Source: Pseudomonas sp. MM223
GTDB taxonomy: Bacteria; Pseudomonadota; Gammaproteobacteria; Pseudomonadales; Pseudomonadaceae
Length of the DNA: 64,000 nt
Assembly: GCA_947090765.1 (NCBI GenBank)
Contig: OX352322.1
Location: 2,711,501-2,775,500, forward strand
Direction: 5' to 3'
Numbering within the stretch: position 1 is the stretch's first letter; the number at the start of each line of letters is the position of its first letter. Below, one piece after another: positions 37,668 through 60,919 of this stretch. A program made the translations under genes and the position numbers. The notes under the pieces were generated by a model. It was not told the origin of the DNA. It ran no database searches and saw only the letters and a list, made by a program, of their open reading frames with translations.

Positions 37668-38261
37668 TCAGTCGTCGCCGTAGTTCATGATCGACAGCAG
37701 GCGTATGGGTACCTGCACCAGTTGCTCCGGGCCGTGCGGGGTTTCGCCGTCGAAGGTCAGGCTGTCGCCAGCGTGCAGGTGATAGAGCTGGTTACCATGG
37801 CGGTACACCAGTTCGCCCTCCAGCAAGTGGAGGAACTCGGTACCGGGGTGGGCGAAGGTGGGGAACTCTTCGCTGGCGTCGTCCATGCTCACCATATAGG
37901 CCTCGAAGTGCTTCTTCGGCCCCCTGGCGTGATTGAGCAAGTGGTAGGTGTGGCCCTTCTCGGTGCCGCGGCGCACCACTTCCAGACCTTCGCCGGCTTT
38001 CACCAGCAGGGCATTGCCGTCGGGCTGGTCATATTGGCTGAACAGCTTGGCCATCGGCATGCCCAGCACGTCGCACAAACGGCTGAGGGTGTCGAGGCTG
38101 GTGGACACCTGGGCGTTCTCGATCTTGCTCAGCATGCCTTGGCTGATGCCGGCGATGCGTGCCACATCGGCAAGCTTGAGGGACTGGGCCTGGCGCTGGC
38201 GCTTGATCTGCAGGCCCAGGTACTGCTCCAGGCGAAGGCGCGGTTCGGTTTCGGTCGACAT
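37668..38261 (-). CDS. XRE-family regulator with cupin domain
   Basis: A 197-residue regulator: an XRE helix-turn-helix (about 18-73, [20 protein letters not shown]) and a C-terminal cupin (about 110-190, [34 protein letters not shown]). Such PuuR-like proteins usually repress amine or amino-acid catabolic genes and sense a ligand through the cupin. It is divergent from the GS-III/GMA synthetase operon, and the shared 301-base region holds GAAA-N5-TTTC dyads at 38353 and 38507 as candidate operators. The latter overlaps the expected sigma-54 start site, a typical position for repression. Confidence 0.85.
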
Positions 38262-39964: not shown

Positions 39965-40870
39965 ATGTGTGGAATCGTAGGTCTGTACCTGAAAAAGCCC
40001 GAGCTGGAAGCCCAGCTTGGCAAGCTCTTCGAACCCATGCTCGAAGCCATGACCGACCGTGGCCCGGACAGCGCCGGCTTTGCCATCTACGGCGACGAAG
40101 TGGCCGATGGCTGGGTCAAGCTGACCCTGCAAGCAACTAGCACAAGTTACCCCTGGGCCACCCTGATGGGGCAACTGGAAGGGCGGCTGGGCTGTTCGCT
40201 GGACTGGTTCCAGAACGCTAGCGCTGCGGTGCTCAAGGTGCATGCCGGCGAGGCAGCCGCCCGCCAGGCCCTGCAAGACCTGGCACCGGAGGTGCGCATC
40301 ATGAGCGCCGGGCAGAGCATCGAAATCCTCAAGGGCATGGGCTTGCCGGCAGAAATCTCCAGTCGCTTCGGTCTGGCCGGCATGAAGGGCAGCCACATCA
40401 TTGGCCACACCCGTATGGCCACCGAAAGCGCCGTGACCATGGAGGGCAGCCACCCGTTTTCCACCGGTGCCGACCTGTGCCTGGTGCACAACGGCTCGCT
40501 GTCCAACCACTTCCGCCTGCGCCAGGCGCTTAAGCGTGAAGGCATCAGCTTCGAAACCGACAACGACACCGAAGTGGCCGCCGGCTACCTGACCTGGCGC
40601 CTGCAGCAGGGCGACACCCTGGCCCAGGCCCTGGATGGCGCGCTGGAAGACCTGGACGGTTTCTTCACCTTTGCCATCGGTACCCGCAACGGCTTTGCCG
40701 TGATCCGCGACCCGATCGCCTGCAAGCCGGCGGTGCTCGCCGAGACCGAAGACTATGTGGCCATGGCTTCGGAATACCAGGCACTGGCCGGCCTGCCAGG
40801 TATCGAGCACGCCAAGGTCTGGGAACCGGCCCCGGCCACGCTGTACGTCTGGGAGCGCGAAAGCGCCTGA
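39965..40870 (+). CDS. glxB: Class II glutamine amidotransferase, GlxB/MgsA type
   Basis: A 301-residue protein starting MCGIVGLY, where Cys2 becomes the N-terminal nucleophile. Further class II motifs are TDRGPDSAGFAIYGD, IGHTRMATESAVT, and VHNGSLSNHFRLR. It corresponds to the amidotransferase domain of glutamate synthase encoded as a separate subunit. It releases ammonia, or hydrolyses gamma-glutamylmethylamide, for the FMN subunit GlxD. It is second in the operon, 67 bases after glnT. Confidence 0.88.
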   Translation: MCGIVGLYLKKPELEAQLGKLFEPMLEAMTDRGPDSAGFAIYGDEVADGWVKLTLQATSTSYPWATLMGQLEGRLGCSLDWFQNASAAVLKVHAGEAAARQALQDLAPEVRIMSAGQSIEILKGMGLPAEISSRFGLAGMKGSHIIGHTRMATESAVTMEGSHPFSTGADLCLVHNGSLSNHFRLRQALKREGISFETDNDTEVAAGYLTWRLQQGDTLAQALDGALEDLDGFFTFAIGTRNGFAVIRDPIACKPAVLAETEDYVAMASEYQALAGLPGIEHAKVWEPAPATLYVWERESA

Positions 40871-40897
40871 CCTGCCACCGAACCTCTGGAGAACCTT

Positions 40898-41572
40898 ATG
40901 AAAACGATCGACCTTTCCAGCACTTCGGTGCGTGTGCTCAACCAGTCCCTGCACGGTGAGGTGCAGGACCCTGAATGGCGGGTGACCCACCCCGATGGTA
41001 AGCACAACCTGGCCGTGGGCATCAACGCCGCCGTGGCGGTGGATATCGAGGGCCACGCCGGCTACTACTGCGCCGGCATGAACCAGCAGGCCAGTGTGAC
41101 GGTGCATGGCAACGTGGGTGTGGGCGTGGCCGAGAACATGATGTCTGGCTCGGTGCGGGTCAAGGGCAGTGCCTCCCAGGCCGCTGGCGCCACCGCCCAC
41201 GGTGGGCTGCTGGTGATCGAGGGTGACGCCGGTGCCCGTTGCGGCATTTCCATGAAGGGCGTGGACATCGTGGTGGGCGGCAGCATCGGCCACATGAGCT
41301 GCTTTATGGGCCAGGCCGGGCGCCTGGTGGTGTGTGGCGACGCTGGCGATGCGTTGGGCGACTCGCTGTACGAGGTGCAGATCTACGTCAAAGGCTCGGT
41401 GCAGTCGCTGGGCTCGGACTGCATCGAGAAAGAGATGCGTGCCGAGCACCTGCAAGAGTTGCAAGAACTGCTGAACAAGGCAGGTTTGGACCACAAGGCC
41501 GCTGATTTCAAACGCTACGGCTCGGCCCGCCAGCTGTACAACTTCAAAGTCGACAACGCCAGCGCGTACTGA
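40898..41572 (+). CDS. glxC: Glutamate synthase alpha-helix-like (GXGXG) subunit, GlxC/MgsB type
   Basis: A 224-residue protein made of the right-handed beta-helix GXGXG domain of glutamate synthase. Repeated turns can be seen: GNVGVGVAENMMSGSVRVKG, GGLLVIEGDAGARCGISMKG, VVGGSIGHMSCFMGQAG, VVCGDAGDALGDSLY. The domain is structural and links the amidotransferase to the synthase. It is 27 bases from glxB and 15 bases before glxD. Separate GXGXG subunits occur in the glxBCD and mgsABC clusters. Confidence 0.87.
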   Translation: MKTIDLSSTSVRVLNQSLHGEVQDPEWRVTHPDGKHNLAVGINAAVAVDIEGHAGYYCAGMNQQASVTVHGNVGVGVAENMMSGSVRVKGSASQAAGATAHGGLLVIEGDAGARCGISMKGVDIVVGGSIGHMSCFMGQAGRLVVCGDAGDALGDSLYEVQIYVKGSVQSLGSDCIEKEMRAEHLQELQELLNKAGLDHKAADFKRYGSARQLYNFKVDNASAY

Positions 41573-41587
41573 TCCAGGAGCATTCCC

Positions 41588-42913
41588 ATGAGCGAACAAT
41601 TCCCCCCGGTACTGCGTGAGTCGGCCACCTTCGATCGCCTGACCATCCAGGAAATCCAGCGTGCCGCCGAAACCGGTATCTACGACATTCGCGGTGGTGG
41701 CACCAAGCGCCGTGTGCCGCACTTCGACGACCTGCTGCTGCTGGGCGCCAGCGTGTCGCGCTACCCCTTGGAAGGCTACCGCGAGAAGTGCGGCACCGAC
41801 GTGGTGCTGGGCAACCGGTTTGCGAAAAAGCCGATCCACCTGAAAATCCCGGTGACCATCGCCGGCATGAGCTTTGGCGCGCTGTCGGCCAATGCCAAGG
41901 AAGCGCTGGGCCGGGGCGCGACCATTGCCGGCACCAGCACCACCACCGGTGACGGCGGCATGACCCCGGAAGAGCGCGGCCAGTCGCAGCATCTGGTGTA
42001 TCAGTACCTGCCATCGCGCTACGGCATGAACCCCGACGACCTGCGCAAGGCCGACGCCATCGAGATCGTCCTCGGCCAGGGCGCCAAACCGGGCGGTGGC
42101 GGCATGCTGCTGGGCATGAAGGTGACCGAGCGGGTGGCCGGCATGCGCACCTTGCCGATCGGCGTCGACCAGCGCAGTGCCTGCCGCCACCCGGACTGGA
42201 CCGGCCCGGATGACCTGGCGATCAAGATTGCCGAAATCCGCGAGATCACCGACTGGGAAAAACCCATCTACGTGAAGATCGGCGCCAGCCGCCCGTACTA
42301 CGACGTCAAGCTGGCGGTAAAAGCCGGTGCGGATGTGATCGTGCTCGACGGCATGCAAGGCGGTACCGCAGCAACTCAGGAAGTGTTTATCGAACACGTC
42401 GGCATCCCGATTCTGCCGGCCATCCCGCAGGCGGTACAGGCGCTTCAGGAAATGGGCATGCACCGCAAGGTGCAACTGATCGTCTCGGGCGGTATCCGCA
42501 ACGGTGCCGACGTGGCCAAGGCCATGGCCCTGGGGGCAGATGCGGTGGCCATCGGCACGGCGGCGCTGATCGCCCTGGGTGACAACCACCCGCGGCTGGA
42601 CAGCGAGCTGAAGAAGATTGGCTCGGCCGCAGGTTTCTATGACGACTGGCAGAACGGCCGCGACCCGGCCGGCATCACCACCCAGGACCCGGAGCTGGCC
42701 AAGCGGCTGAACCCGGAAGAGGCGGGGCGCCGGCTGGCCAACTACCTGCGCGTGCTGGTGCTGGAGGCGCAGACCATGGCGCGGGCATGTGGCAAGTCGC
42801 ACCTGCACAACCTGGACCCGGAGGACCTGGTGGCGCTGACCGTGGAAGCGGCGGCGATGGCACGGGTGCCGTTGGCGGGGACTGCCTGGGTGCCGGGGCA
42901 GGCGCAGTACTGA
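41588..42913 (+). CDS. glxD: FMN-dependent glutamate synthase subunit, GlxD/MgsC type
   Basis: A 441-residue TIM-barrel flavoprotein corresponding to the FMN domain of glutamate synthase. Blocks include IPVTIAGMSFGALSANAKEA, GTSTTTGDGGMTPEERG, IKIGAS-type KIGASRPYYDVKLAVKAGAD, DGMQGGTAATQEVFIEHVGI and GGIRNGADVAKAMALGADAV. In the glx/mgs systems it transfers ammonia or methylamine to 2-oxoglutarate, giving glutamate or N-methylglutamate. The C-terminus carries a short Cys segment (RACGKSHLHNL) but no full Fe-S cluster set was counted. It is the last gene before a REP. Confidence 0.87.
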   Translation: MSEQFPPVLRESATFDRLTIQEIQRAAETGIYDIRGGGTKRRVPHFDDLLLLGASVSRYPLEGYREKCGTDVVLGNRFAKKPIHLKIPVTIAGMSFGALSANAKEALGRGATIAGTSTTTGDGGMTPEERGQSQHLVYQYLPSRYGMNPDDLRKADAIEIVLGQGAKPGGGGMLLGMKVTERVAGMRTLPIGVDQRSACRHPDWTGPDDLAIKIAEIREITDWEKPIYVKIGASRPYYDVKLAVKAGADVIVLDGMQGGTAATQEVFIEHVGIPILPAIPQAVQALQEMGMHRKVQLIVSGGIRNGADVAKAMALGADAVAIGTAALIALGDNHPRLDSELKKIGSAAGFYDDWQNGRDPAGITTQDPELAKRLNPEEAGRRLANYLRVLVLEAQTMARACGKSHLHNLDPEDLVALTVEAAAMARVPLAGTAWVPGQAQY

Positions 42914-43078: not shown

Positions 43079-44384
43079 ATGAAGCACCTCACCCTCGCTG
43101 TAATGTTGTTAGCCCTGGCCACCCAGGCCACTGCCGCCGAAACCACCCTGGACACCGGCAACACCGCCTGGATGATCTGCGCCGCGATGTTCGTGCTGAT
43201 GATGTGCATCCCGGGCCTGGCGCTGTTCTATGGCGGCATGGTGCGGGCAAAGAACTTCCTCTCCGTGTTCACCCAGCTGTTCGCCGTGGCTGGCGTGATC
43301 GGCATCCTCTGGGTGCTGTTCGGTTACAGCCTGGTGGTCGATACCACCGGGATGGTCGAGGGCCAGCTCACCTTCAACAGTTTCATCGGCGGGCTGGACA
43401 AGGCACTGATGCTGGATATTGGCCATGACAGCTTGGTCGGCACCATCCCCGAAGGCGTGTTTGCGGTATTCCAGCTGACGTTTGCCATCATCACCCCGGC
43501 GCTGATTGCCGGCGGTTTTGCCGAGCGCATGAAGTTCAGTGCTTCGTTGCTGTTCATGGCGGCGTGGTTCGTGCTGGTGTACGCGCCAATCGCCCATATG
43601 GTGTGGGGCGGGCCGGGGGCGTTGATGGTCAACTGGGGCGTGCTGGACTTCGCCGGCGGTACTGCGGTGCATATCAACTCTGGCGTGGCTGCCTTGGCTG
43701 CGGCATTGATGCTGGGCAAGCGCAAGGGCTACCCGCAGGTGGCCATGCCGCCGCATAACCTCGGCTTTACCCTGGTGGGTGCAGGGTTGCTGTGGGTGGG
43801 CTGGTTCGGCTTCAACGTGGGGTCGGGGCTGGCGGCCAATGAAGGGGCGGGGGTGGTAATGCTGGCGACCATGGTGGCGGCTTGTGCCGGGATCGTGGGC
43901 TGGTTGCTGACCGAGAAGGTGATGCATGGTCGGCCGACTGCCCTTGGGGCTGCGTCGGGCGCGTTGGCTGGGCTGGTGGGTATCACACCGGCTTGCGCGT
44001 TTGTCGGGCCGTTGGGGGCGGTGGTGATCGGTTTGCTGACGGGGGCCATCTGCTTCTTTGCGGTCACTCGGCTTAAGCAGGCGCTGGGATATGACGACAG
44101 CCTCGATGTATTCGGGTTGCATGGTGTTGGCGGGATGGTCGGCGCGGTGCTGACTGGGGTGTTCGCAGCGCCATCGCTGGGGGGCTATGTAGAGGGTGTA
44201 TCGCCCATCGGGCAGGCGCTGGTGCAACTGAAGGGAGTGGCGTTCACCTTTGTTTACTGCTTCGTGGTGAGCCTGGGCGATTCTCGGGGCGATCAAGCTG
44301 ACTGTCGGGCTGCGGGCCAGTCGGGAGGAGGAAGAGCAAGGGCTGGACCTGGCGGAGCACAATGAGCGGGCTTACAACCTCTGA
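43079..44384 (+). pseudogene. amtB: Ammonium transporter Amt, C-terminal frameshift
   Basis: A precursor with a cleaved signal (LTLAVMLLALATQATAAETT) and eleven membrane helices of the Amt family: NTAWMICAAMFVLMMCIPGL, FYGGMVRAKNFLSVF, AGGFAERMKFSASLLF, and DDSLDVFGLHGVGGMVGAVL with the twin-His pore residues. After FVYCFVVSLG the frame shifts: one extra G in CCTGGGCGATT (44275-44277) moves translation into a 26-residue wrong tail ending at 44365, whereas the restored frame reads AILGAIKLTVGLRASREEEE to a TGA at 44384. Only the last helix and cytoplasmic tail, the GlnK-binding part, are affected. It would import ammonium (or methylammonium) for the glnT/glx genes. Confidence 0.82.
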
Positions 44385-44502: not shown

Positions 44503-44508
44503 GTTGAA

Positions 44509-48111: not shown

Positions 48112-48133
48112 GCGCCCATGGCGCTGCAAGGTA

Positions 48134-50026: not shown

Positions 50027-50590
50027 CTAGCGAATGAAGTGCACCTTGCCGGTGTCATCATTGCCCATGTAGATGCCATACACCCCGGCCTGCCGCTCAA
50101 GGATATAGCGCTCGAGAATCTGCCGGATTGCCGGGTAGTAGATCTCGTCCCACGGAATCTCGTCGGGTTCGAAGAACTTGTACGCCAAGGTCTCTGGACC
50201 GTACTGCCCGGTTTCCTCGATGACGCTGGCACGGAAGATGATGTACACCTCGGAAATTGTAGGCACGCTGAAGATGGAGTAGGGCGAGACGATGTCGGCG
50301 CGCACGCCGCTTTCTTCCCACACCTCGCGCAGTGCTGCCTGCTCGGTGGTTTCGCCAGCCTCCATGAACCCGGCCGGCAACGTCCAGGTGCCGGGGCGCG
50401 GCGGGATGGCGCGCTGGCACAGCAGGTACTTGCCATCGCGCTCGATGATGCAGCCGGCGATGATCTTCGGGTTGATGTAATGGACGTAGCCGCAGCCGGT
50501 GCAGTGCAAGCGTTCGTGGGTGTCGCCTGTGGGAACGCCCCGGGCCAGTTCTGTGGTGCAGTGTGGGCAATAGCGCGGGGCGGTGGGCAT
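50027..50590 (-). CDS. Nudix hydrolase with zinc ribbon
   Basis: A 187-residue protein: N-terminal zinc ribbon (C8, C11, C30, C33) and a full Nudix box (GFMEAGETTEQAALREVWEE, then SGV). This is the NudC-like/ADP-ribose pyrophosphatase-related layout acting on NDP-X compounds. It begins 2 bases after the GntR gene stop, so it is translationally tied to the catabolic regulon upstream. That is unusual for a housekeeping Nudix enzyme and raises the possibility of a role in the pathway's cofactor or nucleotide metabolism. Confidence 0.85.
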   Translation of the reverse strand: MPTAPRYCPHCTTELARGVPTGDTHERLHCTGCGYVHYINPKIIAGCIIERDGKYLLCQRAIPPRPGTWTLPAGFMEAGETTEQAALREVWEESGVRADIVSPYSIFSVPTISEVYIIFRASVIEETGQYGPETLAYKFFEPDEIPWDEIYYPAIRQILERYILERQAGVYGIYMGNDDTGKVHFIR

Positions 50591-50592
50591 GA

Positions 50593-51345
50593 TCAGCGGC
50601 CTATGCGAGGTTCCTTCAGGGCCAGGGGCTCGACAATGTCGCGCACCTTGGGGTTGTCGTCCTGCTTCTGGCGCAGGTAGTCCAGGGCCACCTTGGCGGC
50701 AGCGCGGACGTGGTCCACCGAGGCCTGATGGGCCACCAGCGGGTCGCCACCCTTGATTGCTTCGACGATCTTTTCCATTTCGCGGTTGCTGGCGCCACGG
50801 CGGTTTTCCTGCGATACCGAGGTGGCGCGCAGGTAGCTGATGCGCGCCTGCAACTGGCGCAATTGCTGGGCTGCCACCTGGTTGCCGGAGCCTTCCAGCA
50901 GCACGTCGTAGAAGCCTTGCACCGAATCCAGCACTTGTTGCAGCTCGCCTTCTTCGAGGGCCTCGCGGTTGACCTCCAGCGCACGTTCCAGGGCACGGAT
51001 GTCCTTGGCCTTGGCATTGAGGGTGAACAGCTGCACGATCAGGCCTTCGAGCACGCAACGCAGTTCATAGATGTCGCGGGCGTCTTCCAGGGTGATGATG
51101 GCCACGCGCGGGCCCTTGGCATCGGCAAACTCCACCAGGCCTTCGGACTCCAGGTGACGCAGGGCTTCACGCACCGAGGTACGGCTGACCCCGAGGCGGT
51201 CGCAGAGGTCGCGCTCGACCAGGCGGTCGCCCGGGAGCAGGTGGAAGTTCATGATCGCCGCGCGCAGCTTGTCTAGCACGATTTCGCGCAGGGTAACGGG
51301 GTTGCGGTTGACCTTGAAGCTGTCGTCGAGTGGCTGGCGTTTCAT
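50593..51345 (-). CDS. GntR/FadR-family regulator (FCD domain)
   Basis: A 250-residue regulator: winged HTH (about 18-82, LREIVLDKLRAAIMNFHLLP, LGVSRTSVREALRHLESEGL) and an all-helical FCD domain (about 90-225) with the metal-site His/Asp residues (FYDVLLEGSGN, DPLVAHQASVDHVRAA). Palindromes TGGTATACCA upstream of two operons and a third dyad before the permease fit a FadR/VanR-type dimer. It lies at the end of the operon it presumably controls, giving autoregulation. The inducer should be the unknown substrate or an intermediate. Confidence 0.87.
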   Translation of the reverse strand: MKRQPLDDSFKVNRNPVTLREIVLDKLRAAIMNFHLLPGDRLVERDLCDRLGVSRTSVREALRHLESEGLVEFADAKGPRVAIITLEDARDIYELRCVLEGLIVQLFTLNAKAKDIRALERALEVNREALEEGELQQVLDSVQGFYDVLLEGSGNQVAAQQLRQLQARISYLRATSVSQENRRGASNREMEKIVEAIKGGDPLVAHQASVDHVRAAAKVALDYLRQKQDDNPKVRDIVEPLALKEPRIGR

Positions 51346-51433
51346 CAGGTGCGCTCTTTATGAGGCTGTTGCGCCAACATCGCGGAACGCCCCGAACCGA
51401 GGCTTTCCATGCAGTGGTTCGAACAGCCCGTTG

Positions 51434-51823
51434 TTAACGGGTTGACTCCGCATCGGCTTCGGCAAACGCTTCGCGGGCCAGGCGGAAACTGTCCACCGCC
51501 GCGGGTACGCCGCAATAAATGCCGACCTGGAGCAGAATTTCGCGAATCTGTTCACGGCTCAGGCCATTGCGCAATGCGCCGCGAATGTGCAACTTGAGCT
51601 CGTGGGGCCGGTTGAGCGCGGAAATCATGGCCAAGTTTATCATGCTGCGCTCTTTGAGCGACAAGCCTTCGCGGCCCCAGACGTGGCCCCAGCAGTATTC
51701 GGTGACCAGTTCCTGCAATGGCTGGGTGAACGCGTCGGCGTTCTGGATCGAGCGGTTGACGTAATCCTCACCCAGCACCTGGGTGCGGATGGCCAGGCCT
51801 TTGTCGTATTTCTCGTTGCTCAT
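51434..51823 (-). CDS. Carboxymuconolactone decarboxylase-like protein
   Basis: A 129-residue all-helical CMD-family protein (start 51823), resembling PcaC: LVTEYCWGHVWGREGLSLKE, LAMISALNRPHELKLHIRGA, LREI-type EQIREILLQVGIYCGVPAAV. The CxxC pair of AhpD-type peroxidases is absent, so a decarboxylase or lyase-type role is more likely. Encoded in the GntR regulon, 88 bases before GntR and separated from the flavin reductase gene by a REP pair. Its substrate in this pathway is unknown. Confidence 0.83.
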   Translation of the reverse strand: MSNEKYDKGLAIRTQVLGEDYVNRSIQNADAFTQPLQELVTEYCWGHVWGREGLSLKERSMINLAMISALNRPHELKLHIRGALRNGLSREQIREILLQVGIYCGVPAAVDSFRLAREAFAEADAESTR

Positions 51824-51901
51824 GTGCCGTACTCCGGAAGAAAAAAGGGGCCGCAACCGAGGGTGAGACGATAGCGCGGCCCCTGAAAACAGGGGCGAAA
51901 C

Positions 51902-52018
51902 AGGGGCCGCTGTGCGGCCCATCGCCGGCAAGCCAGCTCCCACATGTACTGCACAGGGCTTGAGGCCTGTGGATCTCCTGTGGGACTGGCTTGCCGGCGA
52001 TGGGCTGCAAAGCAGCCC
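51902..52018. repeat. Paired REP element inside the GntR operon
   Basis: GGGGCCGCTGTGCGGCCCAT (51903 on) and CGCCGGCAAGCCAGCTCCCA are mirrored by CTGGCTTGCCGGCGATGGGC and GCAAAGCAGCCCC. It splits two co-directional genes, so it could set unequal expression of the upstream enzymes and the downstream CMD/GntR genes. Confidence 0.8.
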
Positions 52019-52032
52019 CGGCGATGCCAAGG

Positions 52033-52518
52033 TCAGCCCAAGGGTGGCAGGGCGCCCAGCTTGCCTTTGTGGTAAACCATCGGCGTTACCGGCTCGGCCG
52101 GCAGTACCAGGTTCTTCACCGCGCCGACGATGATCGCGTGGTCACCGCCGTCATACTCGCGCCACAGTTCGCACTCGATGATCGCCGTCGCCTTGGCCAG
52201 CAGCGGGTTGCCCAGCTCGCTCAAGTGCCACTCGACGCCCTTGGCCTTGTCCTTGCCTTTGCCGGCGAAGGCATAGGCTTCGGCAGTCTGCTCGGCGGAC
52301 AGCAGGTGAATCGCGAACTGCTTGCTGTCGCGCAGGATCGGGTAGGTGTCGGAGGCGTAGTTGGGGCAGAACAGTACCAGCGCCGGGTCGATCGACAGCG
52401 CGCTGAAGGCGCTGGCGGTGATGCCGACGATAGCGCCGTCGGCGTCCAGGGTGGTGACTACCGTAACGCCGGACGGGAAGGAGCCCATCACGTCTTTGTA
52501 GATGCCGGGTTCGATCAT
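52033..52518 (-). CDS. Flavin reductase (copy 1)
   Basis: A 161-residue FMN-binding split-barrel reductase: GSFPSGVTVVTTLDADGA, GITASAFSALSIDPALVLFC, AIHLLSAEQTAEAYAF, and GGDHAIIVGAVKNL with the conserved GDH. It supplies reduced flavin to the LLM monooxygenase of the same regulon. It is about two-thirds identical by eye to the copy at 56947 and both carry the same unusual GKGKDKA insert. It lies 12 bases after the aldehyde dehydrogenase gene. Confidence 0.88.
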   Translation of the reverse strand: MIEPGIYKDVMGSFPSGVTVVTTLDADGAIVGITASAFSALSIDPALVLFCPNYASDTYPILRDSKQFAIHLLSAEQTAEAYAFAGKGKDKAKGVEWHLSELGNPLLAKATAIIECELWREYDGGDHAIIVGAVKNLVLPAEPVTPMVYHKGKLGALPPLG

Positions 52519-52530
52519 CTCGTTTTTCTC

Positions 52531-54012
52531 CTAGCGCATCACGAACGGGTCGGGCATCGGCGCGGTGGACAGGTTGATCCACACGGTCTTCAGCTCGGTA
52601 TAGGCCAGCACCGAATCGATGCCGCTCTCACGGCCGTAGCCGCTGTTCTTGAAACCACCGATTGGCGCCATGGCCGACACGGCGCGGTAGGTGTTGACCC
52701 AGATGATCCCCGAACGCACGTCGCGGGCCAGGCGATGGGCACGGCCCAGGTCGCGGGTCCAGATGCCGGCGGCCAGGCCGAACTGAGAGTCGTTGGCGAT
52801 GGCCAGGGCTTCTTCCTCGGTCTTGAAGCGGATGACTGCGGCGACCGGGCCGAACACTTCTTCCTGCATGATGGTCATCGAATTGCTGTCGCACTCGAAC
52901 AGGGTCGGCTCGTAGAACCAGCCGTCACCCTCCACCTCGGCACGCTTGCCGCCCATGTGCAATTTGGCGCCTTCGGCCTTGGCCGCAGCCACCAGGCCTT
53001 CGACCACGGCCAACTGCTGTGCGGTGGCCATCGGGCCCATTTCGCTGGCGTCGTCCTGCGGGTTGCCAATGCGGATACGCTTGGCCCGGGCAATCAGACG
53101 CTCGACGAACTCGTCGAAGATCTCGTCCTGTACCAGCAGGCGTGAGCCGGCCACGCAGCTTTGCCCGGAGGCGGCATAGATGCCGGCCACGGCGCCGTTG
53201 ATGGCGCTGTCCAGGTCGGCGTCGGCGAAGATGATGTTTGGCGACTTGCCGCCCAGCTCCAGCGACAGCTTGGCGAAGTTCTCGGCACTGCTGCGCACCA
53301 CATGGCGGGCGGTGGCGGCTCCGCCGGTGAAGGCGATTTTGCGCACCAGTGGGTGGCGGGTCAGTGCTGCACCGGTGGTTGGGCCGTAGCCGGTGACCAC
53401 GTTGACCACACCGGCCGGGAAGCCGGCTTCGAGGGCCAGGCGGGCCAGTTCGAGGATGGTCGCCGAGGCATGCTCGGAGGGTTTGAGCACGATGGTATTG
53501 CCGGCGGCCAGGGCTGGGGCCAGCTTGATTGCGGTGAGGTACAGCGGGCTGTTCCACGGGATGATCCCGGCCACCACGCCGATTGGCTCATGCACGGTGT
53601 AAGCGAACAGGTCGGGCTTGTCCAGCGGCAGGGTGCCGCCTTCGATTTTATCGGCCAGGCCCGCGGTGTAGTGGAAGAACTCTGGCAGGTAGCCGACCTG
53701 GCCGCGGGTTTCGCGGATCAGCTTGCCGTTGTCACGGCTTTCAAGCTGGGCCAGGTGTTCCTTGTTTTCGGCAATCAGGTCACCCAGGCGGCGCAGCAGC
53801 TTGCCGCGCGCGGTGGCGGTGATGCTGCGCCATTCCTTGCTGTCGAAGGCACGCTGGGCGGCCTGCACGGCCAATTCGACGTCGGATTCGTCAGCGTCGG
53901 GCAACTGCGCCCAGGCCTGGGCGGTGGCCGGGTTGAGGCTGTCGAAGGTCTTGCCGCTCTGGGCATCGCGCCATTGGCCGTCGATGCACATCTGGAAACG
54001 AACGAGGGTCAT
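52531..54012 (-). CDS. Aldehyde dehydrogenase
   Basis: A 493-residue NAD(P)+-dependent ALDH with general base E252 (LELGGKS), nucleophile C286 (SGQSCVAGS), the Asn in IPWNSPLYL and the cofactor loop FTGGAATA. The betaine/4-hydroxymuconic-semialdehyde-like features do not fix the substrate. Its start overlaps the hydrolase stop (ATGA). In this pathway it would oxidise an aldehyde released after ring opening or side-chain cleavage, perhaps a semialdehyde as in RutE/pyridine-type routes. Confidence 0.9.
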   Translation of the reverse strand: MTLVRFQMCIDGQWRDAQSGKTFDSLNPATAQAWAQLPDADESDVELAVQAAQRAFDSKEWRSITATARGKLLRRLGDLIAENKEHLAQLESRDNGKLIRETRGQVGYLPEFFHYTAGLADKIEGGTLPLDKPDLFAYTVHEPIGVVAGIIPWNSPLYLTAIKLAPALAAGNTIVLKPSEHASATILELARLALEAGFPAGVVNVVTGYGPTTGAALTRHPLVRKIAFTGGAATARHVVRSSAENFAKLSLELGGKSPNIIFADADLDSAINGAVAGIYAASGQSCVAGSRLLVQDEIFDEFVERLIARAKRIRIGNPQDDASEMGPMATAQQLAVVEGLVAAAKAEGAKLHMGGKRAEVEGDGWFYEPTLFECDSNSMTIMQEEVFGPVAAVIRFKTEEEALAIANDSQFGLAAGIWTRDLGRAHRLARDVRSGIIWVNTYRAVSAMAPIGGFKNSGYGRESGIDSVLAYTELKTVWINLSTAPMPDPFVMR

Positions 54013-54842
54013 GCAACAATCCCCTTGGCGGATTCGGTGAGGGTGCGGGCTTGCGCGAGGAAGTCCAGCAGCATCTTGTTGACTTCACGGGGTGCTTCTA
54101 CCGGCATCATATGCCGTTGCTCGGCGAGGACCACACTGTGCGCACCTGGAATGCTGGCGGCGAGCTGGCGGGTCATGGCCGGAGTGGAGCCCGAGTCGAG
54201 TTCGCCAGTGGCGATCAGCGTTGGCACCTGGATGCTGCCCAGGTCGTCGGCGCGGTACATGTCCTGGGTGGCGAACAGCGAATAAGTGGTGTGATAGCCC
54301 TGCGGGTCGTTGCTCGCCAGCACTTGGCGAATGGCGGCGACCTGCGCCGGGTTGGCAGCCTTGTATTCACGGCTGAACCAGCGGTCGAGGGCAGCATCGA
54401 CATTGGCGTCGGGGCCCAGCTCCGCAGCCTGGGCGGCGCGGGCGATCACGCCGGCACTCTGCTCGGGGGTGCGGTTGAACACGCTGTTGAGCACGACCAG
54501 CGCAGCCAGGCGCTGCGGGTAGTTAAGGGCAAATGCACGGGCGACCAGGCCACCCATGGAGAAGCCGATCACGGTCGCTTGTTGAATTTGCAGGTGGTCG
54601 AGCAGTTCGGCGAGCTGGTCGGCGTAGCCTTCCAACGGCGTGTCGGCCGCTGGCACGCGGCTTTGACCGTGGCCGAGCATGTCGTAGGCGATGACACGGT
54701 AGTCGTTGGCCAGGCCAACAATCTGACCGCCCCACATTTCCTTGTTCAGGCCCACGCCGTGGATCAGTACCACGGGTTGGCCCTGGCCTACGGACAGGTA
54801 GCTGGTGCCGGCAGGTGTACGTTCAGCGACAGGCTGAATCAT
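54009..54842 (-). CDS. Alpha/beta-fold hydrolase (RutD/PcaD-like)
   Basis: A 277-residue hydrolase starting at 54842. Nucleophile elbow G-F-S95-M-G-G, oxyanion region VVLIHGVGLNKEMWG, acid Asp in ATGELDSGSTP and His in AEQRHMMPVEAP. The short-lid form resembles 3-oxoadipate enol-lactonase and the aminoacrylate hydrolase RutD. It is second in the operon, coupled to the aldehyde dehydrogenase by an ATGA overlap, 68 bases after the DUF1185 gene. It probably cleaves an ester, lactone, or C-N bond after the oxygenase step. Confidence 0.87.
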   Translation of the reverse strand: MIQPVAERTPAGTSYLSVGQGQPVVLIHGVGLNKEMWGGQIVGLANDYRVIAYDMLGHGQSRVPAADTPLEGYADQLAELLDHLQIQQATVIGFSMGGLVARAFALNYPQRLAALVVLNSVFNRTPEQSAGVIARAAQAAELGPDANVDAALDRWFSREYKAANPAQVAAIRQVLASNDPQGYHTTYSLFATQDMYRADDLGSIQVPTLIATGELDSGSTPAMTRQLAASIPGAHSVVLAEQRHMMPVEAPREVNKMLLDFLAQARTLTESAKGIVA

Positions 54843-54910
54843 GGAGGGCGCTCCTTGAAGGTCGGGCGCGGCGGGTAAGCACGCCACGCCCCGGCCCGTC
54901 TTGGTTGTTG

Positions 54911-55507
54911 TTATTGAGCGTTGGCTTTTTCGGCAGCCAGTTCTTCCAGGTCGATGTAGCGGTTGCCGATGCGCGGGTGCAGGCGGCCGCCGTCGGCAGC
55001 GCCCAGCACCACCACGATTTCATCGGCACGCGGGGCGTCTTCGATCTGCATTTCCAGGGTGATGTAGTGCGAACGCAGGCCTTCGTCGTCCTTCTGCATC
55101 ATCGGGATCTGGATCGAGGTGCCTGGGCCGCCGCGCTTGTTGGTGAAGCTCAGGTAGCTCTTGGCCTGGACTGCTTCGCGGTAGTGGTTGCCGAAGCGCA
55201 GGGTGTGGATCACGGCCGAGGCGTGCTCGATTTCGCCGTCGGCGCCGACCACCGCAGCTTTGCCGTAGGCTTCGATCTTGTCGGCACCGCCGATGGCAGC
55301 GGTCAGGCGCTCGACCATCAGGGCACCCAGCTCCGAGCAGTTGGCGCGGATTTCCGGCTTCAGATCTTCAACAAAACCGCGACCGGCCCATGGGTTCTTG
55401 ATCACGACGGCCAGGCCGACCATGGTCACCGGCTTGTCGGTGGCCTTGCCGCCTTCGATGCGGGTCTCTTCGGAGTAGGTGACGATCTTGCGGATTTCGA
55501 AACTCAT
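54911..55507 (-). CDS. 'Amino acid synthesis' family protein (PF06684/DUF1185)
   Basis: A 198-residue protein starting at 55507 (GGAGCCACC upstream). It has the family's features: IRKIVTYSEETRIEGG at the N-terminus, MVGLAVVIKNPWAGRGFVED, RTLRFGNHYREAVQAKSYLS-type central block, and VLGAADGGRLHPRIGNRY near the end. No biochemical function is established to my knowledge, despite the family name. It is the first gene of the long operon, directly behind the TGGTATACCA operator, which suggests an early or central catalytic role in this pathway. Confidence 0.8.
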   Translation of the reverse strand: MSFEIRKIVTYSEETRIEGGKATDKPVTMVGLAVVIKNPWAGRGFVEDLKPEIRANCSELGALMVERLTAAIGGADKIEAYGKAAVVGADGEIEHASAVIHTLRFGNHYREAVQAKSYLSFTNKRGGPGTSIQIPMMQKDDEGLRSHYITLEMQIEDAPRADEIVVVLGAADGGRLHPRIGNRYIDLEELAAEKANAQ

Positions 55508-55546
55508 GGGTGGCTCCTGGTGAGGGTTATCAGCTCTTGTTGTCTG

Positions 55547-55558
55547 ATGGTATACCAT
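55547..55558. promoter_or_regulatory. GntR operator 1, ATGGTATACCAT
   Basis: A perfect 12-base palindrome, flanked by TCTG and AATA, 40 bases upstream of the first gene of the long operon. It has the half-site and tight spacing used by FadR-type GntR proteins. Confidence 0.65.
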
Positions 55559-55643
55559 AATATTTGTTGTGCAAGAGGGGGCTGGAAATTTCTCTTGCGA
55601 GGGGACGAAAGGTGGGCTGATGCCCTCAATCTTGTGGTGTCTG

Positions 55644-55747
55644 TACTGGCCCTATCGCCGGCGAGCCAGCTCCCACAAGGACTGCACTGCTTTCAGAACT
55701 GGTGGTGATCCTGTGGGAGCTGGCTTGCCGGCGATAAGGCCAGTGCA
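55644..55747. repeat. Paired REP element
   Basis: CTGGCCCTATCGCCGGCGAG (55645 on) is mirrored by GCTTGCCGGCGATAAGGCCA ending near 55742. It lies between the two GntR-controlled operons. Confidence 0.8.
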
Positions 55748-55753
55748 GGTTTC

Positions 55754-55800
55754 AAAAAAAAGCCCGCTCACGCAGGCCTAAGGGGCCCACGGGAGCGGGC
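55754..55800 (-). terminator. Rho-independent terminator of the LLM operon
   Basis: On the minus strand GCCCGCTC...GAGCGGGC (55800-55762) with an inner GGGCCCC/GGCC dyad is followed by TTTTTTTT. It ends the two-gene transcript (flavin reductase 2 and LLM monooxygenase) 30 bases after its stop. Confidence 0.85.
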
Positions 55801-55830
55801 GCGTCCCGCAATGATTCAGGCAATGGGAAT

Positions 55831-56871
55831 TCAGGCGAACGCCGGCACCACTTCCTTGATGAACAGCTCCAGCGACTTCTTCTTCTCGGCGTGGGGCAGG
55901 CTGTTGTCGCACCAGAAGCTGAACTCGTCGACGCCGAGCTCCTGGTAGTACTTGATGCGAGCGATGATTTCTTCCGGGGTGCCGATCATGGTGTTCTTGC
56001 GGATGTTCTCCAGCTGGAATGCCGGTACTTCGGCAAACTTCGATTCCGGGCTCGGCTCCAGGAAGCCGTTGACCGGCACGGTCTTGTTGCCGAACCAGGC
56101 ATCGAAGGTACGGTAGAAGCGCGAGATAGCCTGGGCGCCGATTTTCCACCCTTCCGGTTCGGCCGGGCTGTGCACGTGGGTGTGGCGCAGCACCATCAAT
56201 TGTGGGCGTGGCACGTCCGGGTTGTTGTCCAGGGCGGCCTGGAACTTGTTCTTCAGGTCCAGCACTTCTTCGTCACCCTTCATCAGCGGGGTGACCATGA
56301 CATTGCAGCCGTTGGCCACGGCGAAGTTGTGCGAGTCCGGGTCGCGGGCAGCGATCCACATCGGCGGCGTGGCGTTGAACGGCTTCGGCACGCTGGTGGA
56401 GGTGGGGAACTTGTAGACTTCGCCATCATGGGCGTAGTCGCCTTCCCACAGCTTGCGCACCACCGGCACCATCTCGCGCAGCGCCTTGCCGCCGTCGGTG
56501 GCTGGCATGCCATTGGCCATGCGGTCGAACTCGAACTGGTAGGCGCCACGGGCCAGGCCCACTTCCATGCGGCCGTTGCTGATCACGTCGAGCAGGGCGC
56601 ATTCGCCGGCGACGCGGATCGGGTTCCAGAACGGCGCAATGATAGTGCCGGCACCCAGGCGGATCTTCTCGGTGCGCGCGGCCAGGTAGGCCAGCAGCGG
56701 CATCGGGCTTGGCGAAATGGTGTACTCCATGGCGTGGTGTTCGCCAATCCACACGGTGCTGAAACCGCCGTCTTCGGCCATCAGGGTCAGTTCGGTCAGG
56801 TCTTCGAACAACTGGCGGTGGCTGACCTGTTCATCCCAACGTTCCATGTGTACGAACAACGAAAATTTCAT
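55831..56871 (-). CDS. LLM-class flavin-dependent monooxygenase
   Basis: A 346-residue luciferase-like TIM-barrel enzyme: KFSLFVHMERWDEQVSHRQL, TLMAEDGGFSTVWIGEHHAM, RTEKIRLGAGTIIAPFWNPI, LLDVISNGRMEVGLARGAYQ, PPMWIAARDPDSHNFAVANG and a C-terminal GTPEEIIARIKYYQELGVDE. It uses reduced flavin and oxygen and is paired with the upstream flavin reductase (75-base gap). Group members include RutA, which opens the uracil ring, and PyrA-type pyridine ring-opening enzymes. With an NCS1 permease, a nucleobase-like ring is a sensible substrate guess. It is not RutA itself; the gene set differs. Confidence 0.88.
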   Translation of the reverse strand: MKFSLFVHMERWDEQVSHRQLFEDLTELTLMAEDGGFSTVWIGEHHAMEYTISPSPMPLLAYLAARTEKIRLGAGTIIAPFWNPIRVAGECALLDVISNGRMEVGLARGAYQFEFDRMANGMPATDGGKALREMVPVVRKLWEGDYAHDGEVYKFPTSTSVPKPFNATPPMWIAARDPDSHNFAVANGCNVMVTPLMKGDEEVLDLKNKFQAALDNNPDVPRPQLMVLRHTHVHSPAEPEGWKIGAQAISRFYRTFDAWFGNKTVPVNGFLEPSPESKFAEVPAFQLENIRKNTMIGTPEEIIARIKYYQELGVDEFSFWCDNSLPHAEKKKSLELFIKEVVPAFA

Positions 56872-56946
56872 GGGGCTTTCCTCAACGCTTGAAAGGGGCT
56901 GGCGCCTGGCAGGGTAGGCGCCAGTGGTCTCGATTCAGAATAGGCT

Positions 56947-57432
56947 TCAGGCAAAGGCCGGCAGGCTGGCCATCTTGCCGCGGCAGTACACCATCGGCCG
57001 TGGCGCTTCTTCGGGCACAATCAGGTTATGCACCTTGCCAACCATGATGGCGTGGTCGCCACCTTCATATTCACGCCACAGTTCGCATTCGATGACAGCG
57101 GTGGCACCCGCCAGGACCGGGTTGCCCAGTTCGCTCAGGGACCACTCGATGCCACTGGCCTTGTCCTTGCCTTTTTTGGCAAACGCATAGGCTTCGGCTT
57201 GCTGCTCACCGGAAAGCAGGTGAATGGCAAAACGCTTCTGCTTGATCAGCACAGGGTAGGAGTCGGAGGTGTAGTTGGGGCAGAACAGCACCAGCGGCGG
57301 GTCCATCGACAGGGAGGAGAAGGCGCTGGCGGTCAGGCCGACAACCGAGCCGTCGTCGTCCAGGGTGGTGATGACGGTAACGCCGGACGGGAAGGAGCCC
57401 AGGACGTTCTTGTAGACGGTTGCGTCGATCAT
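56947..57432 (-). CDS. Flavin reductase (copy 2)
   Basis: A 161-residue paralogue of the protein at 52033, with the same blocks: GSFPSGVTVITTLDDDGS, GLTASAFSSLSMDPPLVLFC, LLSGEQQAEAYAFAKKGKDK, GGDHAIMVGKVHNL. It is first in the operon with the LLM monooxygenase and so is its dedicated FMNH2 or FADH2 source. The start at 57432 lies 57 bases behind GntR operator 2. The presence of two reductases suggests two flavin-using steps or a tandem duplication split between operons. Confidence 0.88.
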   Translation of the reverse strand: MIDATVYKNVLGSFPSGVTVITTLDDDGSVVGLTASAFSSLSMDPPLVLFCPNYTSDSYPVLIKQKRFAIHLLSGEQQAEAYAFAKKGKDKASGIEWSLSELGNPVLAGATAVIECELWREYEGGDHAIMVGKVHNLIVPEEAPRPMVYCRGKMASLPAFA

Positions 57433-57488
57433 CGGGAGTACCTCTAAAGGGCTGCGGTGGTCCGCGGTTTTTATCGTTGATGTGTCTG

Positions 57489-57500
57489 ATGGTATACCGT
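57489..57500. promoter_or_regulatory. GntR operator 2, ATGGTATACCGT
   Basis: Eleven of twelve bases match operator 1, as do the flanks TCTG and AATA. It is upstream of the flavin reductase 2/LLM operon. Confidence 0.62.
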
Positions 57501-57660
57501 AATACCTATTTTGCAAGCGGAATTTTCAACCCTGATTTTTCACGATGAACGGCTCAAGGCCACGTAAATAGCGGCTTTGAATGGTGAGGCGGTTTGTCGC
57601 AGGGGTTTCGCGAGCAGATCAGCGGGCGTTTTTTCGTACGGATCAGTGTTGTCAAAAGTT

Positions 57661-57679
57661 TGGAATACCATAATATGGT
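57661..57679. promoter_or_regulatory. GntR operator 3, ACCATA-A-TATGGT
   Basis: TGGAATACCATAATATGGT contains a perfect 13-base odd dyad (57667-57679) plus the TACCATAATA block shared with operators 1 and 2. It lies 71 bases before the permease start, on the other side of the 317-base divergent gap. No further gene or signal was recognised in that gap. Confidence 0.55.
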
Positions 57680-57749
57680 CCGCAGCTGAGAGGCCGCCCT
57701 GGATGCGGTTTCCTTACAAAGATAAAAACGACCTTTCGAGCTGAATCCT

Positions 57750-59156
57750 ATGTCCCAACCGTCATCGCAACACCAGTTTGTCGAGAATCACACGGTCGAT
57801 TACGTTCCACCTGCCGAGCGCCACGGGAAGGCGCGCGACCTGTTCACCCTCTGGTTCAGTACCAACATTGCGCCACTGCCTATCGTTACCGGCGCCATGG
57901 TGGTCCAGGTGTTCCACCTGAACCTGTTGTGGGGGCTGATCGCCATTGTGTTGGGCCATCTGGTCGGGGGTGTGGTCATTGCCCTGGCTTCTGCGCAGGG
58001 ACCGCAGCTGGGCATTCCACAGATGGTGCAGAGCCGTGGCCAGTTCGGCCGCTACGGCGCCTTGTTGATCGTGTTCTTCACCGCGCTGATCTATGTCGGC
58101 TTCTTCATTTCCAACATCGTCCTGGCGGGCAAGACGATTCACGGTATCGCCCCGGGCGTACCGATGCCGGGTGCGATCGTGATCGGTGCCCTGAGCGCCA
58201 CGGCCATCGGCGTGATCGGCTACCGCTTCATCCATGTCCTCAACCGTATCGGTACCTGGGTGATGGGTTCGGCGCTGCTGGCCGGCTTCATCATGATGTT
58301 TGCCCAGGCGCTGCCGGCCGACTTCTTCAGCCGTGGCGCGTTCAACCTGTCGGGCTTCATTGCGACCGTGTCGCTGGGCACCATCTGGCAGATCAGTTTC
58401 TCGCCCTACACATCGGACTACTCGCGTTACCTGCCGCGTGAAGTGGGCATCGCCAAGCCGTTCTGGGCCACCTACTTCGGCGCTACCCTGGGCACCATCC
58501 TGTGCTTCAGCTTTGGTGCGGTGGCGGTGCTGTGCGTACCGGAAGGTACCGACGCCATGGATGCGGTGAAACAGGCCACCGGCTGGCTGGGCCCGATCCT
58601 GATGGTGCTGTTCCTGCTCAACATCATCAGCCACAACGCCCTTAACCTGTATGGCGCGGTGTTGTCGATTGTCACCGCGATCCAGACCTTCATGGCTGAT
58701 TGGACGCCGAGCATCAAGGTGCGGGTGATCCTGGCATCGGCGATTCTGGTCGGCTGCGGAATGGTTGCACTGAACGCCTCGGCGGACTTCATCGGCCACT
58801 TCATCGGCCTGATCCTGGCGCTGCTGCTGGTGCTGGTGCCGTGGGCTTCGATCAACCTGATCGACTTCTACCTGATCAAGAAGGGCCAGTACGACATCGC
58901 CTCGATCTTCAGTGCTGATGGCGGTATCTATGGCCGCTTCAACCATCACGCGATCATTGCCTATGCCTGCGGCATCCTGGTGCAGTTGCCGTTTGCCAAC
59001 ACGTCGTTGTATGTGGGGCCGTACTCGAACCTTGTCGAAGGGGCTGACTTGTCGTGGTTGTTCGGGTTGATTGTTACGGTGCCGCTGTATTACTGCCTGG
59101 CGACCCGAGGCAAAGCTGCCGAGAAGGCGGGGCGGGTAGTGAATGCAAACGACTGA
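57750..59156 (+). CDS. NCS1-family nucleobase/cation symporter
   Basis: A 468-residue, twelve-helix permease of the CodB/Fcy2-like NCS1 group: LFTLWFSTNIAPLPIVTGAM, GIPQMVQSRGQFGRYGALLI, SFSPYTSDYSRYLPREVGIA, ISHNALNLYGAVLSIVTAIQ, DGGIYGRFNHHAIIAYACGI. NCS1 permeases import cytosine, purines, allantoin, hydantoins and similar rings with H+ or Na+. It is divergent from the flavin reductase/LLM operon and shares GntR-type operators, so it presumably imports the pathway substrate. A frameshifted paralogue lies at 44509. Confidence 0.9.
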   Translation: MSQPSSQHQFVENHTVDYVPPAERHGKARDLFTLWFSTNIAPLPIVTGAMVVQVFHLNLLWGLIAIVLGHLVGGVVIALASAQGPQLGIPQMVQSRGQFGRYGALLIVFFTALIYVGFFISNIVLAGKTIHGIAPGVPMPGAIVIGALSATAIGVIGYRFIHVLNRIGTWVMGSALLAGFIMMFAQALPADFFSRGAFNLSGFIATVSLGTIWQISFSPYTSDYSRYLPREVGIAKPFWATYFGATLGTILCFSFGAVAVLCVPEGTDAMDAVKQATGWLGPILMVLFLLNIISHNALNLYGAVLSIVTAIQTFMADWTPSIKVRVILASAILVGCGMVALNASADFIGHFIGLILALLLVLVPWASINLIDFYLIKKGQYDIASIFSADGGIYGRFNHHAIIAYACGILVQLPFANTSLYVGPYSNLVEGADLSWLFGLIVTVPLYYCLATRGKAAEKAGRVVNAND

Positions 59157-59293: not shown

Positions 59294-60919
59294 TCAAACC
59301 TTGAACTGCGCCACCATGCCGTTCAAATCCACCGCCAGCCTGGACAAATCCTGCGCTGCGGCGCTGGTCTGGTTGGCCCCCGCCGACGTCTGCATCGCCA
59401 GGTCGCGAATGTTCACCAGGTTACGGTCAACCTCCCGCGCCACCTGCGCCTGTTCCTCCGAAGCACTGGCAATCACCAGGTTGCGCTGGTTGATCGAGGC
59501 AATCGCCTCGGCAATCACTTCCAACGCCTGACCGGCACCTTGCGCCACATCCAGTGTGCTGGTGGCACGCCCCTGGCTGCTGTGCATAGCCGTCACCGCC
59601 CGCTCGGTCCCATTCTGGATACCCGCGATCATCTGTTCGATCTCTGCTGTCGACTGCTGGGTGCGGTGGGCGAGGGCGCGCACTTCGTCGGCCACCACGG
59701 CAAAGCCACGGCCTGCCTCGCCGGCGCGGGCAGCTTCGATGGCGGCGTTCAGCGCCAACAGGTTTGTTTGCCCGGCAATCGCGCCAATCACATCCAGCAC
59801 GCGGCTGATTTCGTTGGCATTGCTGGCCAGTTGTTCGATCTCGGCCGAGGTGCCAGTTACGTCAGCCACCAGATGTTGAATGGACGCCAATGCCTGGTTG
59901 ACCCGGTCGCGGCCATCACGGGTGGTCTGGTCGGCGCCCTTGGAGGCATCGGCAGTGCTGACTGCATTGTTCGCCACCTCTTCGACGGCGGCGGTCATCT
60001 GGTTCACGGCGGTGGCCGCCTGGTCGATTTCCGCGCTCTGCTGGTGCAATCCGCGGCTGGTGTCTTCGGTGACGGTGTGCAGTTCTTCCGAGGCCGAAGC
60101 CAGTTGGTCGGACGACGCGGCGATCTTGCGGATGGTGTCACGCAGGCTTTCCTGCATGCGGCTCAGGGCACGCAACAGCAAGGCTGGCTCGTCGCGGCCG
60201 GAAGCGCGAATTTCCCGGGTGAGGTCGCCGGTGGCTACACGTTCGGCGACAGCGACGGCATCGGCCAGTGGTACCACGATGCTGCGGGTAAGCACGGTGG
60301 CAATGACGGCCAGGGCGAACATGATGACCAGCAACGAGGCGATGATGGCGGTGAACGCTTCGTCTGCGACGTCACTGCTGCGCTGCGAGGCGTCTTCGGC
60401 GCCCTTGCTGTTGTAGGCGATCAGGGCGGTCATGGCCTTCATCATGGTGTCGGCGCGCTGGGTGAGCGGGCCGCTGATCTGCAGCTTGGCCTCGCTCATG
60501 CGGCCAGCGGCAATGTCCTGCAGCACTTGCAGTTGCAGGTTGAGGTACTGCTGGTGTGCGTCATTGAAGGCGTTGAACAAGGCGCGGTCGTCGGCCGCGA
60601 TGATGGTATCGGCGTAGTCCTTGAGGCCGTCCTTGAGTTCGGCGTTGATGCCTTCGAGCATCTGAATGTTCCGAGCGCGCTCGGCAGGGTTGTCGTCCAG
60701 TGCGGCACGCAGGGTAACGGCGCGGGCGCGCCCAAGGTTGCTGCTGATGTCACCCAGGGCTACCACGGCGGGCATCCAGGTGACCCGGATTTCGTCGGTG
60801 GCCTTGTCCATCTGGCGGGTTTCGTAGAGTGCGATAAGGCCCATGAACAGGACCAGGATGCCCAACAGGGCGAATACGCTGGCAGCGCGAATGCCGATCT
60901 TCATATTCCGTAACTGCAT
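59294..60919 (-). CDS. Methyl-accepting chemotaxis protein
   Basis: A 541-residue chemoreceptor: TM1 about 12-32, a periplasmic four-helix-bundle ligand domain of roughly 155 residues (about 33-188), TM2 about 189-211, HAMP ([19 protein letters not shown]) and the cytoplasmic signalling domain with the hairpin tip [20 protein letters not shown]. No C-terminal CheR/CheB pentapeptide is seen. It is next to the permease of the unknown pathway and may sense the same compound, but its promoter carries a different dyad (61075-61095). Confidence 0.9.

Follow-up and report, generated by a model that had tools for sequence, protein, structure and literature searches.

A gene cluster at positions 50027 to 59156 of the window, by which we mean the whole 64,000-nucleotide stretch of Pseudomonas sp. 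MM223 analysed here (contig OX352322.1, positions 2,711,501 to 2,775,500), is probably a catabolic island for trigonelline (N-methylnicotinate) of the type called tgn in Acinetobacter baylyi; we put the probability at roughly three in four. The identity of the genes, a homologous gene set in A. baylyi, an operator shared by the two clusters and a linkage to genes for methylamine assimilation were observed directly. From these we infer trigonelline itself as the substrate, each of the reactions and the direction of regulation. The island extends beyond the cluster, to the methylamine-assimilation genes at about 37668-44365 and perhaps, with uncertain membership, to a chemoreceptor gene at 59294-60919.

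The first-pass annotation of this DNA had proposed an uncharacterised GntR-controlled, flavin-dependent pathway that degrades an N-heterocyclic ring. The part of this proposal that is supported is a flavin-dependent route under GntR control that opens an N-heterocyclic ring, two promoters having an operator in common. The pathway is not uncharacterised, since a characterised cluster with the same gene set exists: the A. baylyi trigonelline-type cluster is homologous in eight gene families (33-74% identity) and has the same operator type and the same type of NCS1 permease. This cluster (locus L040, A. baylyi DSM 14961) was found by scanning species genomes with Acinetobacter LLM proteins from a plasmid collection as queries. 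We assume the names TgnA-TgnF for its products from enzyme class, species and the pathway as reported in the abstract of the 2018 trigonelline paper. Its order is GntR, DUF1185, alpha/beta hydrolase, flavin reductase (310 aa), LLM, aldehyde dehydrogenase, NCS1, a 388-aa protein with no Pfam match, a second aldehyde dehydrogenase and CMD, and a DUF1330 gene lies beside it.

All genes that the first-pass annotation had named were found, each above its Pfam gathering score. They are given below together with the two operators and the adjoining chemoreceptor gene; gene starts were placed by eye, and percentages are identities to the L040 counterparts from direct alignment.

50027..50590, minus strand: NUDIX hydrolase with an N-terminal zinc ribbon (PF00293 and PF14803), behind the GntR gene
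50593..51345, minus strand: GntR/FCD regulator (Pfam; 37.2%)
51434..51823, minus strand: PcaC-like CMD protein, 129 aa counted from MSNEKY (Pfam; 74.2%)
52033..52518, minus strand: flavin reductase 1 (FR1), single domain, 161 aa (PF01613; 38% to the A. baylyi reductase domain)
52531..54012, minus strand: aldehyde dehydrogenase (ALDH), TgnC counterpart (Pfam; 53.0%; GQSC cysteine region kept)
54009..54842, minus strand: alpha/beta hydrolase, TgnD counterpart (Pfam; 33.2%; Ser, Asp and His motif regions align)
54911..55507, minus strand: DUF1185/AA_synth protein, TgnF counterpart (PF06684, 240.5 bits; 54.3%)
55545..55562, plus strand: operator-like sequence TGATGGTATACCATAATA, upstream of the DUF1185 gene
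55831..56871, minus strand: LLM flavin-dependent monooxygenase, TgnB homologue (Pfam; 48.8%; sister clade)
56947..57432, minus strand: flavin reductase 2 (FR2), single domain, 161 aa (PF01613)
57487..57504, plus strand: operator-like sequence TGATGGTATACCGTAATA, upstream of FR2
57750..59156, plus strand: NCS1 permease (PF02133; 53.8%)
59294..60919, minus strand: methyl-accepting chemotaxis protein (MCP) with a 4HB_MCP_1 sensor, adjoining the cluster, membership uncertain

The LLM protein aligns with its A. baylyi relative over 344 positions, with the stretches HMER, GEHH and ARGAY in common, and the catalytic motif regions of the hydrolase and of ALDH align with their counterparts as well. Among the best 120 of 1832 LLM relatives, four are named "flavin-dependent trigonelline monooxygenase, oxygenase component" at their source; the names of the matches listed are mostly generic. 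A published figure legend gives Q6F9F6 as the accession of TgnB. The two 161-aa reductases, which are 38.7 and 38.4% identical to the single 310-aa A. baylyi reductase over the shared domain only, are one difference between the clusters. Gene order is another, being DUF1185-hydrolase-ALDH-FR-CMD-GntR-NUDIX in the window, with FR-LLM separate. The window also has nearby methylamine genes and an additional NUDIX gene, to which a 343-aa frame at 50027-51058 resolves (about 50027-50590, behind the GntR gene); NUDIX genes are likewise present in clusters L020, L021, L022 and L027, and none was detected in L040. No copy of the TgnE-type succinate-semialdehyde dehydrogenase (SSADH), of the 388-aa protein or of DUF1330 was found in the window. 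The hydrolase and ALDH genes overlap by 4 bases. AA_synth is the present Pfam name of the former DUF1185, and solved relatives of this protein are 2qtp and 3byq.

More distant clusters of this type, on pSymA of Sinorhizobium meliloti (L030/L033) and in Gemmobacter (L029), have the DUF1185-hydrolase-FR-LLM-ALDH core and the operator in common with the window. They differ in having an ABC transporter in place of NCS1 and NIPSNAP or DUF1330 partners, and their LLM proteins are about 50% identical to that of the window. S. meliloti is known to use trigonelline. Two further relatives have unusual arrangements: in Mesorhizobium (L028:6205-8004) a single fused protein of 599 aa combines the alpha/beta hydrolase with the flavin reductase, tying the two functions together, and on plasmid pDCT5 of Arthrobacter dokdonellae (L027) the DUF1185 gene is present twice, along with genes for a tautomerase and a riboflavin kinase and a linked SSADH. 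Within the part of the results covered, a literature search by title found nothing on the Pseudomonas cluster.

The cluster had been read as two divergent operons. NCS1 does lie on the opposite strand, as the only plus-strand gene of the cluster, and the placement of the operators suggests three transcription units instead, namely FR2-LLM, DUF1185 to NUDIX, and NCS1. Both TGATGGTATACCATAATA and TGATGGTATACCGTAATA have a chance expectation of 0.00 (100 shuffles), and an imperfect, weaker copy lies at 57661-57670, upstream of NCS1. Because operators stand before DUF1185 and FR2, with the weaker copy before NCS1, these promoters fit one GntR regulon, in which GntR would control the set through TGGTATACCA-type operators. 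Upstream stretches of 96 DUF1185 genes in 99 loci (L017-L115; stretches under 200 bases were dropped) were scanned with GGTATACCRTAATA. In 78 of the 96 the best match had at most two mismatches (none in 13, one in 38, two in 27), and in the other 18 it had more; when each stretch was shuffled five times with its composition kept, no match at two mismatches or fewer arose. The A. baylyi DUF1185 gene is preceded by the operator with one mismatch.

The gene set is one system and not a chance assembly, as judged from the co-occurrence of LLM and DUF1185 in 298 genomes of the genus (thresholds E ≤ 1e-100 for LLM and E ≤ 1e-80 for DUF1185). LLM was found in 167 and DUF1185 in 168 of them, the two together in 166, LLM alone in one, DUF1185 alone in two and neither in 129; the single LLM-only genome is an assembly that is 73% complete. 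The pair is retained even when the genes are distant, for example in G417, where they lie at about 1.64 Mb and 5.85 Mb of one contig. In L124 and L125 from the genus, and in L126 from the family, the two halves of the cluster are split by an ABC transporter, RibBA and DUF1330, none of which was found in the window, and the operator is present three times in each locus. The RibBA flavin-biosynthesis genes of these islands (L124:9518-10624, L125:8327-9433, L126:15104-16267) each have an operator copy nearby, which suggests that flavin supply is co-induced with the island in these three loci.

Roughly 6-12 kb away from the ring-degradation cluster lies a second set of genes, which bears on the nature of the substrate:

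37668..38261, minus strand: XRE-cupin regulator, divergent from gmaS
38563..39897, plus strand: GmaS, of gamma-glutamylmethylamide synthetase type (TIGR03105, 673.9 bits, cut-off 469.6)
39965..40870, plus strand: GATase gene, MgsA (domain architecture)
40898..41572, plus strand: GXGXG gene, MgsB (domain architecture)
41588..42913, plus strand: glutamate-synthase-domain gene, MgsC (domain architecture)
43079..44365, plus strand: AmtB-type ammonium, possibly methylammonium, transporter (TIGR00836, 383.0 bits, cut-off 343.3)

We take TIGR03105, whose NCBIfam name is type III glutamate--ammonia ligase, to denote GmaS, and the genes at 39965..42913 presumably encode N-methylglutamate synthase, MgsA, MgsB and MgsC. 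The likeness to the N-methylglutamate pathway thus lies in a GmaS above its cut-off and in GATase, GXGXG and glutamate-synthase-domain proteins in one run, the three-part synthase being matched by domain architecture only. For the N-methylglutamate dehydrogenase of that pathway, soxA-family matches alone were examined, and none was identified as the enzyme; one match in the genome exceeds the soxA cut-off (C1:420883) and one soxA-like protein falls below it (C1:2543222), and neither is near the island. The A. baylyi trigonelline route reportedly releases methylamine, and the linked methylamine genes agree with an N-methylated substrate.

GmaS above its cut-off was found in 74 of the 298 genomes, 67 of the 167 with LLM and 7 of the 131 without (Fisher p 3.5e-13, a value in which kinship among genomes overstates independence). 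Of 76 GmaS places above the cut-off, 59 are in genomes for which an LLM place was listed; 43 of these 59 share a contig with LLM, and 36 of the 43 lie within 30 kb of it. Ten LLM-GmaS neighbourhoods were looked at closely, nine of them picked because the pair is close, so they serve as illustrations and the unpicked evidence is the 298-genome count. The LLM frame directly adjoins the MgsC-type frame in L176, and one unmatched 129-aa frame separates the two in L175. L180 reads MCP, NCS1, FR2, LLM, DUF1185, hydrolase, ALDH, FR1, CMD, GntR and NUDIX, followed by a second NCS1, Amt and the Mgs and GmaS genes, with no kinase block intervening between the sets. In L177 the GmaS match is only 46%, and a counterpart was detected for none of the Mgs proteins of the window.

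Some features of the window between and around these genes are worth recording. The halves of the island are separated by a sensor kinase and a pair of LysE-type exporters (46798-49945), an arrangement not seen in L180. At 44509-45949, on the minus strand, a second NCS1 permease gene is broken, its halves being in different reading frames; its relatives in L180, L184, L191 and L192 are single frames of 474-479 aa, and the break may reflect either a true pseudogene or a fault in the assembly. Repeats of the GCCGGCAAGCCAGCTCCCACA type, presumably Pseudomonas REP elements, occur in both orientations between island genes (51824-52032, 55511-55830 and 44366-44508).

The linkage to methylamine genes makes an N-methylpyridinium more likely than the pyrimidine, hydantoin or pyrazine suggested earlier, and it speaks against a Rut-like route for a non-methylated N-heterocycle of that kind. 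Such a route would account for the broad enzyme classes, which are those of RutA, RutD and RutF, and for an NCS1 permease. The likeness, on which the first-pass annotation had dwelt, ends with those classes (LLM, reductase, alpha/beta hydrolase): the window has NCS1 rather than the NCS2 of Rut, and the NCBIfam cut-offs are missed by a wide margin, with 61.7 and 62.3 bits for the two reductases against 254.75 for RutF and 94.5 for the hydrolase against 238.5 for RutD. No RutA model was among the best 25 of 31 NCBIfam matches, and no protein of RutB or RutC type was found among the ten cluster proteins scanned against Pfam. The Rut route would leave the methylamine genes without a role and would have to set aside a near-complete match to the gene set of another pathway. 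On the NCBIfam cut-offs we reject the Rut pathway, and a Rut-like route for a non-methylated N-heterocycle is very improbable.

In a tree of 56 LLM proteins the window falls in a clade of Pseudomonas and actinobacterial sequences (20 rows, 100/100 support), and the A. baylyi LLM groups with Burkholderiaceae, rhizobia and Rhodobacterales. In Caballeronia pedi (L049, about 3.7-10 kb and beyond) one operator is shared by two tgn-like clusters that diverge from it; LLM, DUF1185, hydrolase and ALDH are present in both, the LLM of the second lies on a separate branch, and the two clusters possibly serve related substrates under one regulator. These two facts speak for a tgn-type island whose substrate is a different N-methylated ring (N-methylnicotinamide, homarine or another N-methylpyridinium, for example) that would release methylamine or an N-methyl amino acid by similar chemistry; a homarine pathway, which uses Mgd, has also been described. 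No second oxygenase of this kind was seen, however, each of the 167 LLM-positive genomes having one match of the family at E ≤ 1e-100. GmaS and Mgs-type genes suit free methylamine better than the N-methylglutamate route of homarine. Gene set, operator type and NCS1 type are the same as in A. baylyi. PMC8269262 also considers homarine an unlikely substrate of TgnA/TgnB. We regard another N-methylated ring as unlikely, while giving it some weight.

Several observations weigh against a trigonelline island of the tgn type. The window LLM does not fall in the same clade as the A. baylyi LLM, and long branches separate the two; both reductases are without the C-terminal half of the A. baylyi reductase; the hydrolase is only 33% identical to its counterpart; and no TgnE-type SSADH is linked to the cluster in the window, where the best matches reach 37% (the cluster ALDH) and 32%. 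Since L049 has two tgn-like clusters, the family does contain paralogues, and these may have another substrate. In favour of the tgn reading, an SSADH 58% identical to that of A. baylyi was found by genome search, unlinked, at C1:2636485; a second SSADH-like gene (G000:C1:278046-279472) matches as two adjacent pieces, 61 and 66% identical. As to linkage, GmaS is on another contig than LLM in 16 of the 59 cases and more than 30 kb away in 7 of the 43, it is missing above its cut-off from 100 of the 167 LLM-positive genomes, kinship inflates the association as said above, and the 19 kb that make up L040 gave no match to GmaS or Mgs. Palindromes of GGTATA type, as known for NanR, may be common to this GntR subfamily, so the shared operator is support and not proof. 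The sister clade, the shorter reductases, the unlinked SSADH and the L049 paralogues are the reasons why our confidence in trigonelline stays at about three in four.

The CMD protein is the most conserved of the set (74%) and, to our knowledge, has no published step in the trigonelline pathway. Against the PcaC model TIGR02425 it scores 151.0 or 152.1 bits, under the cut-off of 155.7, and another locus of the genome fits better (200.5 bits); the cluster CMD is thus probably not the PcaC of this genome, and a beta-ketoadipate role of PcaC/PcaD type was rejected. The best NCBIfam model for the hydrolase is likewise PcaD, with a score under its cut-off. That both proteins come nearest to PcaC and PcaD type models, and that LLM enzymes include diketocamphane monooxygenases (4uwm), might point to a flavin-dependent Baeyer-Villiger pathway for an alicyclic ketone ending in a PcaC/PcaD-like lactone step. 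The 4uwm match is weak (E 1.8e-5), the A. baylyi cluster has the same CMD, and methylamine genes are linked to the cluster; we consider this pathway extremely improbable.

For a trigonelline-type pathway we tentatively suggest, with rather more doubt than confidence, that CMD is an unrecognised enzyme that would decarboxylate or tautomerise a 2-formylsuccinate-like intermediate after the hydrolase, toward succinate semialdehyde. Such a decarboxylation would be chemically natural for a PcaC relative, and, if true, the role would explain why CMD is at 74% while the preceding hydrolase has diverged to 33%. The A. baylyi pathway has reportedly been rebuilt in vitro with six proteins and without CMD, which counts against an obligatory step, so that CMD would at most speed up or channel it. 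Partners were counted in 75 related loci with a minimum length of 15 kb; most of these had come from a single scan around an Acinetobacter LLM, so they are not a random sample. DUF1330 alone occurs in 32, CMD with DUF1330 in 21, NIPSNAP alone in 10, CMD with NIPSNAP in 1, CMD alone in 1 and none of the three in 10. DUF1330 or NIPSNAP without a detected CMD in 42 of the 75, and the 10 loci with none, also count against a CMD step. DUF1330 and NIPSNAP never occur together in these loci; CMD and DUF1330 often do, so CMD as a replacement for DUF1330 was rejected.

The reaction order that we propose follows the one reported in the abstract of the 2018 A. baylyi paper. NCS1 would import the substrate, FR1 or FR2 would provide reduced flavin (FMN or FAD), and the LLM oxygenase would open the N-methylpyridinium ring. 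ALDH would oxidise the ring-opened aldehyde or lactol, and the alpha/beta hydrolase would split an N-formyl-N-methyl enamine, yielding methylamine, formate, CO2 and succinate semialdehyde. The unlinked SSADH, aided by the DUF1185 protein, would bring the carbon to succinate. Methylamine would be recaptured by AmtB, GmaS and N-methylglutamate synthase via gamma-glutamylmethylamide and N-methylglutamate.

DUF1185 had earlier been thought a possible ring-cleaving enzyme. This is not likely, because the trigonelline ring is opened by TgnA/TgnB according to PMC8269262, a reductase and an LLM doing so in the described pathway, and we set the idea aside. PMC7913881 describes TgnF of the A. baylyi ADP1 trigonelline pathway as homologous to a DUF1185-type protein and as stimulating succinate-semialdehyde oxidation; its authors saw no such effect for their own DUF1185-type HcdD. 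MCP genes also stand beside several related clusters. A chemoreceptor might still serve as trigonelline sensor: in one preprint none of the dCache_1AM domains examined bound trigonelline, and the window MCP carries a 4HB sensor and not dCache_1AM.

The island is most likely the Pseudomonas version of a described pathway, the assignment being useful and the pathway itself already known. It offers a candidate substrate and a stepwise mechanism for a cluster whose LLM occurs in 167 of the 298 genomes sampled from the genus, and it sets the parts with a likely role (LLM, ALDH and hydrolase) apart from CMD, NUDIX, DUF1330 and the mode of action of DUF1185. In these bacteria the breakdown of a common plant betaine and the recycling of its methylamine would sit in one island.

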